NCBI GenBank assembly: GCA_003978135.1
Contig: QOAL01000145.1
Location: 1-10,423, forward strand
Length of the DNA stretch: 10,423 bases
Direction of reading: 5' to 3'
Source of the DNA: Thermodesulfatator sp.
Lineage (GTDB): Bacteria; Desulfobacterota; Dissulfuribacteria; Dissulfuribacterales; QOAL01
The position numbers were made by a program, and so were the translations under genes. Below, piece after piece: positions 5,042-10,423 of this stretch (positions within the stretch are counted from its first letter, which is position 1; the number at the start of each line of letters is the position of its first letter). The notes beneath the pieces are model-generated. The model worked only from the letters and a program-made list of their open reading frames with translations, was not told the origin of the DNA and made no database searches.

Positions 5042-5869
5042 ATGACCAAATTATTGGATCTTTTTCTCAAGAACAGATGTCATGCATTCATACTGATTGT
5101 GCTGGGCCTGTTCCACCTACTCTTTTTTTTAACGGGCTGTTCCCTTTTCAAAAGCCAACCTGTTGTACAGATGCCTCCTGTAAAGCGCACCGGGGATCCC
5201 ATCCAGGATATAAGGACCAGGGCTGACAGAATAAGGAGCATTGAAATCAGGGGGCGCCTGAGCATACGCACAAGAACCAGGAAATACCCGTCATTCAGTG
5301 TTGCCATATGGTTTTACAGCCATAGCGAAAGGCTTAACCTCAGGATAAGGGGATCAGGTCCATTGGGGGTAAGTGTTTTCGACTTGCTGGCAGACAGGCA
5401 GGAAGCATGGATCTATGTTCCCCGAGAGGGCAAGATACTTAAGGGCAACACCTTTTTTACCAGCCATGGCAGCATTGGCGTTGATGCTGCCATCCAGTTA
5501 ATGGAGATATGCCTGAACCCCTGGTCTCCTGTTCGTAATTGCAGTTCCACCAAGAAGGAATACATGGCCGAAAGAAAGGACGGCAGGATGGTGGCCAGGA
5601 TTAAATGCCGATTCCTGGGTCATGATCTGGCGCTTTCCTATGATTTATCTTCCCTTGAGCCCTTAACCTTTGACAGCAGCCTTGCCACCATTTCCTTTCG
5701 GGCCGGAGACAGTGACCAAGCCACCTCCTATCCCCGTGAAATATCATTTAATCTTAAAAAAGATGGTATTTCCGGCACCCTCAAGGTTCAACAGGTAAAA
5801 GTCAACACCATCTCTCCGGACAGCCCAATCTTCGAAAGAAGCATTTTCAGCCCTTTGAAGACCATGTGA
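5042..5869 (+). CDS. Outer-membrane-type lipoprotein, LolA/LolB-like (DUF4292-like) fold
   Basis: A 275-residue protein and the only plus-strand gene. Residues 1-33 form a lipoprotein signal: a few basic residues, a long hydrophobic stretch (about 15-30) and lipobox LTGC with the modified Cys33. Ser follows the Cys, which in the E. coli Lol rule favours outer-membrane sorting. Residues about 60-230 have the pattern of beta strands seen in LolA/LolB and DUF4292 lipoproteins: IRGRLSIRTRTRKYPSFSVA, then a LRIRGSGPLGVSVFDL stretch and WIYVPREGKILKG. The family call is from this pattern, not from a decisive motif. The N-terminus is well supported by the signal peptide; the ribosome site is only a weak AGGGGCGG. 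It is divergent from trxC and convergent with the selenoprotein gene 138 bases away. It may help handle lipoproteins or lipids at the outer membrane, which is inferred from the fold alone. Confidence 0.8.
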   Translation: MTKLLDLFLKNRCHAFILIVLGLFHLLFFLTGCSLFKSQPVVQMPPVKRTGDPIQDIRTRADRIRSIEIRGRLSIRTRTRKYPSFSVAIWFYSHSERLNLRIRGSGPLGVSVFDLLADRQEAWIYVPREGKILKGNTFFTSHGSIGVDAAIQLMEICLNPWSPVRNCSSTKKEYMAERKDGRMVARIKCRFLGHDLALSYDLSSLEPLTFDSSLATISFRAGDSDQATSYPREISFNLKKDGISGTLKVQQVKVNTISPDSPIFERSIFSPLKTM

Positions 5870-6007: not shown

Positions 6008-6913
6008 CTAGTGTTTACGTTTTTCCAGCAAGTACAGCCTGTTCTGGCTGCCATTTACCACATAACCGCTGTCGCCGTTTTTCCTGACAAAAAGCCTTAT
6101 AATCCCGACCGATTTGCCCCTGGGATGACTGCTTACCACGAGGGTCTTGCCGATTCTGACAGGATTTCTAGTGGGAGAGGTTCGACCGCTGGAAATTATC
6201 AAGGCCACTCCAGGATGCTTCTTTACAAATTCCACCTCCCTGGGAGGTATCATTGATGAAAGGACTATCACCAGATCAGAATTTTCACTGACTTTTTTCA
6301 TGTACCTTTCCAAGGCAGGATCTGAGTACTGTATCTCGGTTTCATTTCCGCCGGGTATTCCCCTGGGAACGGCTTTTCCTGAAACAGATACCACCCCTAT
6401 TCTTAGCCCCTTTGCCTTGAATATCCTGAAGGGAGAAAAGGCCGGTCTTTTGCCACAGTAAAGGTTGGCCGAGGCCAAAATTGTTCCTTCCGGGTCCAGA
6501 TCTTTAAGAAATGCGCATCCTGCAGCCAGATCATCCACTCCAATACCCGCAAGATTATATCCCATTTTTTTATAGGACTGGAAAATCGACGCTGCTTTTT
6601 TCTTTCTCATGGAATCAATGTGCCGTCCTGACTGAAAAAGAAACCTGCCACCGTCCAGAAGAAGATCTATCTGCCCGCTTTTCTTGTGCTCTTGGATCCA
6701 ACTGATCCTTTGGGAAATCCCGCCGATTTCCCTTCCGCCTCAGGAGTGGACAGGCCTTGTCTCACCCCATGTATTTGTTGTATAGGCGACGGCTAAAGTG
6801 ATTTGCCCATTTTTTTGCCCGGTTGCGACAGCGGCGGCGAAGGCGTGCTGCCAGGCCAGAAACAGCCCTGTAAAAAGACACATCAAAATGGTTGCCCATC
6901 TGTTATTTTTCAT
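6008..6913 (-). CDS. Exported UshA-like selenoprotein, in-frame TGA read as selenocysteine 58
   Basis: Two open frames (6740-6913 and 6008-6739) are in the same frame and separated only by one TGA at 6742-6740. Read through, they give a 301-residue protein. Residues 1-26 are a signal peptide (basic start, hydrophobic core, cleavage near AFA), so it is exported. The rest follows the calcineurin-like/5'-nucleotidase N-terminal fold of UshA: ITLAVAYTTNTWGETRP (38-54), Sec58 followed by GGREIGG, LLLDGGRF (84-91), a MGYNLAGIG segment (117-125), then SANLY and GLRIGVVSVSG. Related proteins carry Cys in the region where Sec58 sits (PCxxC or CGC followed by GG). The usual metal ligands are absent: Asn47 and Trp49 replace the Asp and His of DxH, Arg90 replaces an Asp, and Val126-Asp127 replace Asn-His. 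A redox role is therefore likelier than a phosphatase. The start at 6913 has AAGGAG eight bases upstream and overlaps the HD gene by 11 bases. The alternative reading is a pseudogene with a nonsense mutation. Confidence 0.82.
6712..6742 (-). promoter_or_regulatory. Sec UGA codon with candidate bacterial SECIS hairpin
   Basis: In the mRNA the UGA (6742-6740) is followed after seven bases by a perfect 8-bp stem, GGGAAATC pairing with GATTTCCC, closed by the 5-base loop GGCGG. The loop begins 15 bases after the UGA and has G at its first two positions. In bacteria the SelB-binding element lies inside the coding region just after the UGA, with a small apical loop carrying an early G. This matches that layout, at the short end of the spacing range. 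The hairpin bases also encode sensible protein (REIGGISQ). Confidence 0.72.
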
Positions 6914-7514
6914 TACCATTTCTCCTTTTCCCTTCTGCAGACTCTTCATTAAACGAATCCATCCACCAGGCAGCCCAGTGTACCTGCCTGATTCCTTGTG
7001 CAAGGCGTTTGGCTTCAGGGGTCATGAGCCTTTTTTCCACATGGGGTATCCACCTCTCGGCATTTGGGTTTCCGCAGTCCATTTGCTCCTTCAGGGAAAC
7101 AAGCATGTCTATCTGGTCTGCATCCCTTGCAAGCCGTGCTTCCAGGCTCTGGCCTTCATGGTACTCCCTGTATAGATCCATGAGATCATCTGCAAGGCTG
7201 CATCCTTCCACTGCATGCATGAAAGCCCTCATCTCATCTCTGCGGATATACTTCTTGTGAACTGCATTGGCATCCCCTGTCCTGGCCTCGGGCAGGTCAT
7301 GTATAAGCGCCATGAACACAAGTTTTCGACTGTCTGCCTCGGGCACCATCTTTCCAAGAAGCAATGCGATAAAAGCGGTGGAAAAGCTGTGGGCCGCAGA
7401 ATTTTCCCTGCCCGTTCCAAGAAAGGCATAACCGGTCCTTTCGGTACGCTTGAGCATTGCGGCCTCAAACATGAGTTTAACTATCTCGGTAGTCTCATGG
7501 ATTTCAGGGTCCAT
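6903..7514 (-). CDS. HD-domain hydrolase, YfbR/HDDC2-like 5'-deoxynucleotidase family
   Basis: A 203-residue soluble protein with the HD-domain metal site in order: His42 (AAHSFSTAFIA), His72-Asp73 in ALIHDLPEARTGD, and the DADQID cluster at 131-136. This order and spacing fit the YfbR/HDDC2 group, which removes phosphate from deoxynucleoside monophosphates; exact substrate is not provable from sequence. I chose the ATG at 7514 because MDPEIHE begins the conserved part and an AAGGAG lies about 14 bases before it. A GTG at 7541 would add nine residues but has no ribosome site. It follows holA by about 60 bases. Its last 11 bases overlap the selenoprotein start, which suggests translational coupling of a cytoplasmic nucleotidase-type enzyme with an exported nucleotidase-fold protein. 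Confidence 0.85.
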   Translation of the reverse strand: MDPEIHETTEIVKLMFEAAMLKRTERTGYAFLGTGRENSAAHSFSTAFIALLLGKMVPEADSRKLVFMALIHDLPEARTGDANAVHKKYIRRDEMRAFMHAVEGCSLADDLMDLYREYHEGQSLEARLARDADQIDMLVSLKEQMDCGNPNAERWIPHVEKRLMTPEAKRLAQGIRQVHWAAWWMDSFNEESAEGKRRNGNEK

Positions 7515-7574
7515 ATCTTTTCTGCTGGCTCCTTCCTGCACCTGCTGTTGAAATCTTGCGTTTAGGCCTCAGAT

Positions 7575-9832: not shown

Positions 9833-10423
9833 TCAGGCCTCCGGGCTAACCATGACCTTTTGGGCAAGGCCCTTGCCCAGAGCCACCCTTGAACCCTTAA
9901 CACTCACGATAATAGGTCCGCCCCTGTTCAGGACCTCCACCTGCTGCCCTATGGAGATGCCCATGTCGGAAAGTCTGTTCTTGAGCTGTGTGCCCCCCTG
10001 GAACTCTACTATTTTTACCTTTTCTCCAGGAGAAACCATTGACAGGGGCATGTTGGCACCCTCTTTTTTCCTGCACTCAGGACATATGCCATATATGGTG
10101 CACTTGTTGGATATGGGCTCGAAACCGTGCTGTCTGGCAGCATCCATCACCTTGTCAGCCAGGTCTTCATGGTCAAATTCCACCACCTTTCCACATCTCA
10201 TGCAGAAAAGGTGGTCATGACGCTCCCCCAGGTGAAGATGCTCATAATAGGGCCCCCTGCCATTCAACTGCACCTTTTGTGCAAGCCCGTAGCGACAGAG
10301 AAGGTCAAGAATATTTTCGATGTCTGCCCTTGAAAGCCCCGAGGCCTTTTCACCCAGCCTTTCCCTGAGATAATCAGCCGTAAGATGCCCCTCGGATTTC
10401 AGGAACTCGTCCACCACCTGCAT
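9833..10423 (-). CDS. Fur-family metalloregulator fused to a FeoA domain (5' end beyond window)
   Basis: The visible 196 residues combine two iron-linked modules in one uninterrupted frame. Residues about 1-62 are a winged-helix segment (SRADIENILDLLCRYGLAQK, then a wing with GRGPYYEH). Residues 63-120 are the Fur dimerisation and metal domain, with the HDHLFCMRCGKVVEF motif (His69, His71, Cys74, Cys77) and a second zinc pair, Cys114 and Cys117, in YGICPEC. Residues about 126-193 are an SH3-like FeoA domain (PLSMVSPGEKVKIVEF, RLSDMGISIGQQVEV, GSRVALGKGLAQKVMV). The Met at the edge (10423) is probably internal, since Fur proteins normally have 15-25 more residues before it. Fur represses iron uptake when Fe(II) is bound, and FeoA assists the FeoB ferrous-iron transporter. 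No feoB follows; proC does. Promoter and any Fur box are outside the window. Confidence 0.9.
   Translation of the reverse strand: MQVVDEFLKSEGHLTADYLRERLGEKASGLSRADIENILDLLCRYGLAQKVQLNGRGPYYEHLHLGERHDHLFCMRCGKVVEFDHEDLADKVMDAARQHGFEPISNKCTIYGICPECRKKEGANMPLSMVSPGEKVKIVEFQGGTQLKNRLSDMGISIGQQVEVLNRGGPIIVSVKGSRVALGKGLAQKVMVSPEA

Follow-up and report, generated by a model that had tools for sequence, protein, structure and literature searches.

UshA-like selenoproteins are known from metagenomes and from NCBIfam (PMC2398784, PMC9312934, PMC13188914; here and below, statements on these papers refer to their accessible parts). The GOS survey contained a COG0737 UshA-like selenoprotein with a CxU motif (PMC2398784), and a review table includes NF049981, UshA-like (seleno)protein family 2, with a CxxU motif (PMC13188914). 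We analysed a 10,423-nt stretch of DNA, hereafter the window, in which an earlier note made from the sequence alone had proposed a gene for an exported UshA-like protein with selenocysteine (Sec) at position 58, hidden by an in-frame TGA. In a tree of 65 rows, the window protein fell into a clade of 35 (support 99/96), with the members of its genus forming a clade of four (100/99). This branch, the loss of a partner Cys and the second hairpin reported below were not found described in the accessible literature on UshA-like selenoproteins.

Members of NF041198 (UshA_like_PCGU) have the same fold as the window protein by profile and carry Sec in the same loop, ahead of GG[LI]xRR. However, this model spans 519 positions and has a CxU (PCGU) motif, whereas the window has PVHSU. 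NF049981 (UshA_like_Sel_2) resembles the window branch in its single-domain length (262 positions) and in the CxxU motif, which is found in 30 of the 35 clade members, but the window itself has VHSU without Cys. The periplasmic 5'-nucleotidase UshA and the thiosulfohydrolase SoxB share the N-terminal domain by profile (about 2e-31 to 4e-31 for UshA and about 5e-28 for SoxB), whereas in the window protein the ligand sites are replaced and the 301 residues are too short for the C-terminal domain. What is new here is that the genus of the window has lost the Cys of CxxU, has kept Sec and has two Cys residues that are unseen in the other rows.

The suggestion that the family may already be known was right for the group as a whole, but the window protein scored below both NCBIfam models, with 152.5 bits against a cut-off of 275 for NF041198, the best model, and 73.3 bits against 140 for NF049981. 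It therefore represents a neighbouring branch rather than a modelled member. Ten further clade members (of 34) were scanned and were also below both cut-offs. The same was true of eight of the ten homologues scanned from outside the clade, so a score below the cut-off is not special to the window clade; the other two, G048 and G058a, passed NF041198. None of the 21 scanned proteins passed NF049981, which leaves that model without a positive control. The passing member G058a (PCGU) has a C-terminal Cytochrome_C554 domain, unlike the window protein, and this domain may point to electron transfer in the family at large.

The gene and the features around its start are as follows.

6008..6913, minus strand: UshA-like selenoprotein gene of 301 codons plus a TAG stop, with Sec at codon 58 and with TGA-bearing homologues
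6740..6742, minus strand: in-frame TGA, taken as Sec58 from the read-through translation and its homologues
6922..6927, minus strand: Shine-Dalgarno-like AAGGAG, 8 nt ahead of the ATG at 6913 and within the end of the HD gene
6836..6913, minus strand: likely signal peptide, residues 1-26, with an AFA cleavage motif, read by eye from the translation
6903..7541, minus strand: HD-domain (HD_3, YfbR-like) hydrolase gene, whose last 11 nt overlap the start of the selenoprotein gene

The frame running from 6913 to 6008 has a sole interruption, the TGA at 6742-6740, and taking this codon as Sec gives a protein of 301 aa with a single U at position 58. As the earlier note had described, gene calling breaks the locus at the TGA into ORFs of 87 aa (6740-7003) and 200 aa (6008-6610) in the same frame. 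Judging from the signal peptide, the UshA-like selenoprotein would be exported.

A search with the read-through protein found homologues in 47 of 60 genomes (the window's own and 59 relatives), at 52 places; there were 54 matches, since G010 and G032 each matched in two pieces. The 51 places aligned excluded the weakest one, a third place in G053 bearing one TGA. At the Sec column, 47 of these places had TGA, two had Cys (G025 and G059) and two had Thr or Ala (G051 and G054), the last two being true metallophosphatases with intact ligand motifs. All 35 members of the window clade carried the TGA. Within the order, 37 of 46 genomes had a match, 35 of them in the clade and two outside it (G025 and G042), and nine had none. 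Among 54 database proteins, the column held Cys in 14 and another residue in 11, and 29 had no residue there. The expectation that homologues would have Cys or U at position 58 was thus borne out (47 U and two C), and the statement that the TGA falls where relatives have Cys held for more distant relatives (2/51 places; 14/54 database proteins), whereas near relatives carry Sec.

A single-protein scan of genome contigs found no relative, and an alignment-based scan found 11 loci, which we took as genomes already in the set and kept out of the counts. One similarity search scored only the 8000 candidates with the most shared words. Phage sequences gave no match, and plasmids gave two weak Hymenobacter matches annotated as metallophosphatase/5'-nucleotidase.

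In the first protein search, all ten database matches started after the TGA, including the window's own ORF, and the protein had no match in Pfam. Both observations would fit a TGA that is a true stop, so that the locus would be a gene in decay or a pair of separate short genes. However, selenoprotein calls shortened by UGA are a known annotation fault (PMC13188914), and all 35 clade members have the TGA with an open frame on either side of it. Selection was estimated for four within-genus pairs, three pairing the window with a genus mate and one pairing G001 with G002. Upstream of the TGA (codons 30-57), the three window-mate pairs gave dN/dS values of 0.32, 0.19 and 0.43, and downstream of it pN/pS was 0.32-0.39; in the G001/G002 pair the ratio was 0.94 over a 23-codon upstream stretch, with no clear selection there. 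The three window-mate comparisons thus support purifying selection on either side of the TGA, and together with the Sec machinery of the genome this makes a true stop very improbable.

The window's own genome encodes selA (609 bits), selB (338.9 bits) and tRNA-Sec (74.4 bits). Of the Sec genes that the earlier note had proposed to look for, only selD was not found in this assembly (1.28 Mb, 55.7% complete, 231 contigs), but it is present in all three other genus members, each time with one internal TGA (L097, L098 and L099). Across the 60 genomes, a tRNA-Sec match above the cut-off was found in 54, and 50 had one of at least 65 bits. The ten without a match of at least 65 bits (G003, G006, G010, G018, G032, G037, G040, G044, G045 and G049), nine of which have the TGA gene, may reflect assembly gaps or missing contigs. 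As a separate observation, the internal TGA makes selD of these genus mates a selenoprotein gene too, and in two of three folds a single hairpin after that TGA, at the usual distance, resembles in shape the second hairpin described below.

An open frame alone would also fit a UGA read through as Trp or a near-cognate residue, without selenium. This is even less probable than a true stop, since in rows with the motif in common the residue that replaces Sec is Cys, and Trp occurs in no row, and since the genome has tRNA-Sec, selA and selB. Moreover, TGA also terminates six of the 35 clade genes, and therefore it has not been reassigned. A sequencing or assembly error might be suspected in a genome as fragmented as that of the window, but the same TGA occurs at 46 further places in other genomes, and we regard such an error as the least probable of these readings. 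A pseudogene, a true stop, read-through as Trp and a sequencing error were all rejected, given the TGA at 47 of 51 places and the presence of the Sec machinery. The proposal of an UshA-like selenoprotein with Sec58 is upheld by the TGA in the whole clade, Cys in distant relatives, selA, selB and tRNA-Sec, and purifying selection, and selenocysteine at codon 58 is close to certain.

Two hairpins lie directly downstream of the UGA.

6712..6732, minus strand: 8-bp hairpin with loop GGCGG, a candidate bacterial SECIS (bSECIS), complete only in the window and the sister species G001 among 33 clade members
6694..6708, minus strand: second hairpin, GGATC-AGTTG-GATCC, conserved in the clade, with covariation and synonymous codon choice

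The perfect 8-bp stem that the earlier note had placed seven bases past the TGA is present as described (6732-6725 paired with 6719-6712, loop at 6724-6720, after the seven bases 6739-6733). The RNA of 6742-6690 folds at -18.9 kcal/mol (z -2.63), a value as good as which was reached by 3 of 200 shuffles. The bacterial SECIS model has a loop of 3-9 nt, a stem of 4-16 bp, G in the first two loop positions, an energy of at most -7.5 kcal/mol and 16-37 nt from UGA to the apical loop (PMC13188914). The 8-bp hairpin, with its 5-nt loop and -11.0 kcal/mol alone, lies within this model in stem, loop, G and energy, and its loop begins 15 nt from the UGA, 1 nt below the published range. The second hairpin (5 bp, loop AGUUG) has its loop start at 36 nt, within the range, and at -4.9 kcal/mol alone it misses the energy limit by itself. 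As a SECIS, then, the proposed 8-bp stem exists and folds well, but it is complete in only two clade members and its loop starts just short of the published distance, so that the proposal stands only in part.

Of 20000 dinucleotide shuffles, 267 gave a G-led hairpin in range as good as the best one here, and of 20000 codon shuffles 318 did so (chance about 0.013-0.016); the range was our own (loop start 12-30 nt after UGA, loop of 3-14 nt) and wider than the published model. The exact pairs of the 8-bp stem had P = 0.042 under the gene's own codon usage. Because of these counts and this P value, the 8-bp hairpin by itself is only mildly unusual. As a SECIS of the whole family it was rejected, with 44.7% of cells paired across 33 sequences, no better than slid controls. 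Rfam gave nothing at the gathering score across the window.

The 47 Sec sequences had a mean hairpin score of 14.4, which exceeds the null maxima of 12.9 and 13.7 (200 rounds). In an alignment of 33 of the 35 clade members (G022 and G030, which have one codon less in this region, were excluded), a helix with its loop 18 nt after UGA was complete in 19 members (null maximum 5) and a helix with its loop 36 nt after UGA in 24 (null maximum 6). When codons were resampled according to usage, none of 1000 rounds reached the observed mean for either helix. With one sequence for each of 12 genera, the 18-nt helix was complete in 5 and the 36-nt helix in 8, and none of 2000 resamplings reached the observed means; both helices were chosen after viewing the alignment, so that the tests on them carry hindsight. 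The corresponding columns paired poorly in the two homologues with Cys, which formed one and three of five pairs, and two and two of four. The 18-nt helix showed no covariation in the clade alignment. The 36-nt helix covaried above shuffles and slid controls, with C-G replacing U-A in six sequences, a signal that related sequences can inflate and that could also come from coupling of the same residues in the protein. In the window, the 36-nt helix is whole and the 18-nt helix has two of its four pairs. We think that the 8-bp stem would stand in for the proximal helix in the window, with the distal helix as the second part of the signal.

When the family profile was compared with solved structures, the best match was the 5'-nucleotidase N-terminal domain (6e-39). 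At eight aligned sites, which we take to be metal ligands (motifs NDxH, GD, GNHE, sH and GHxH), the metallophosphatases G051 and G054 carry D, H, D, N, H, H, H and H, whereas the residues of the window protein are, in the same order, N, W, R, V, D, S, G and T. The predicted fold is thus that of the UshA N-terminal domain, but none of the eight ligand residues is retained. On these replacements we set nucleotidase activity aside and consider a redox role of the selenol likelier. A SoxB-like role on SoxYZ was also set aside, SoxY being found in none of the 46 genomes of the order; this test is weak, as 14 control genomes also gave nothing.

The positions that distinguish the genus of the window within this fold are the following.

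6749..6751, minus strand: codon 55 (Val), occupied in 30 of the 35 clade members by the CxxU partner Cys
6515..6517, minus strand: Cys133, in four of four genus members and none of 47 other rows
6455..6457, minus strand: Cys153, likewise in four of four genus members and none of 47 other rows

A Cys at most three residues ahead of Sec was found in 30 of the 35 clade members, and the exceptions were the four genus members and G005. The triplet before Sec is VHS in three genus members, LHA in the fourth and SKS in G005. A second Cys precedes the Sec column by two or three residues in all 14 database proteins with Cys at that column, and also in G025 and G059, which suggests paired thiol/selenol chemistry. 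Cys133 and Cys153 also occur together in eight more database entries (P0003-P0010), but these start after Sec, so that their motif is unseen, and some of them resemble genus members already counted. Given the usual strand-helix-strand topology, Cys133 and Cys153 would presumably lie at the sheet edge that bears the Sec loop. G005 has neither new Cys despite its loss of Cys55, and therefore relocation of the partner thiol is not general. Since the genus also represents a single evolutionary event, the link between Cys loss and Cys gain is suggestive only. Outside the clade, G055 (L077:5200-6297) shows the same kind of loss: it has PSGU, with Sec retained and the partner Cys replaced.

The gene may also encode a genuine selenoprotein in which Sec58 works alone, whether it ligates a soft metal or metalloid or acts as a nucleophile in the manner of peroxidases, with an external thiol to resolve it; Cys133 and Cys153 would then be structural or unrelated. 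The partner Cys is missing in six of 49 Sec/Cys rows (G000-G003, G005 and G055), G005 and G055 have neither new Cys, and in the genus His56 lies near Sec (VHSU/LHAU) and could serve as a ligand. However, the distant Cys forms all have two thiols, and both new Cys residues are fixed in exactly the genus that lacks the old one. We consider a solitary Sec58 rather unlikely.

Surrounding genes offered little guide to function. The HD gene is immediately upstream in 26 of 35 clade loci, and four of the other nine are at contig edges. A gene for a CCG-domain 4Fe-4S protein lies directly 3' in 16 of 35 clade loci (e.g., L063:7722-9011), within 80 nt in 14 of them; the window genus has no CCG-domain gene downstream and has a LolB-like gene on the opposite strand and a thioredoxin gene instead. 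The LolB-like gene, at 5042-5869 of the window, is a convergent lipoprotein-like gene present in all four genus members; it was called LolB-like by our own reading and has no Pfam match. Further neighbours were proC, a DNA polymerase III delta-like gene and aroB, and therefore no function was drawn from the neighbourhood. In nine of 35 clade members, none of them in the window genus, the C-terminal tail has one or two copies of an NPFLxAIExAKK-like motif (e.g., L063:6528-7676, L047:7337-8509 and L057:6404-7519), which is possibly a docking segment. Elsewhere in the window, a single ORF at 9836-10423 joins a Fur-like regulator and a FeoA domain and continues past the window end.

The explanation that we favour is an exported redox protein with Sec58 on a metal-less UshA domain, with Cys133 and Cys153 as resolving thiols and decoding aided by hairpins, and we put the probability of this explanation as a whole at about 0.6. 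UGA58 would be decoded as Sec by SelA, SelB and tRNA-Sec, aided by the hairpin structure directly 3' of it. The protein would consist of an N-terminal metallophosphatase domain of the UshA/5'-nucleotidase family without metal ligands, and so would not act as a nucleotidase. Sec58 probably lies in the loop that follows the first strand, bordering the former metal site, where it may serve as a redox nucleophile; its substrate may be a thiol, a persulfide or another oxidised sulfur or metalloid compound of that kind. In most other members of the clade, Sec would pair with the Cys three residues upstream (CxxU), and in the genus without this Cys, Cys133 and/or Cys153 probably take over as resolving thiols. 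Of this explanation, the single frame, the conserved UGA, the Cys replacement, the Sec machinery, the ligand-site changes and the loss and gain of Cys are as read from the sequences. We put forward more tentatively a third branch of UshA-like selenoproteins with a metal-free shell and periplasmic selenol redox chemistry, in which one genus would have relocated the resolving thiol and the mRNA would carry a tandem SECIS, its 36-nt hairpin being the most constrained and similar in shape to that of selD in two of three genus mates.

Selenoproteins that lack a partner thiol offer a useful way to test the contribution of Sec alone. Here, sister genera with and without the partner Cys share one fold, which makes the role of the resolving thiol and its mobility testable. 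The branch belongs to a known group of selenoproteins, its scanned members score below the current models, and its entries from the protein search all start after the UGA. The conserved helices suggest that the RNA signal for Sec insertion may span two hairpins.
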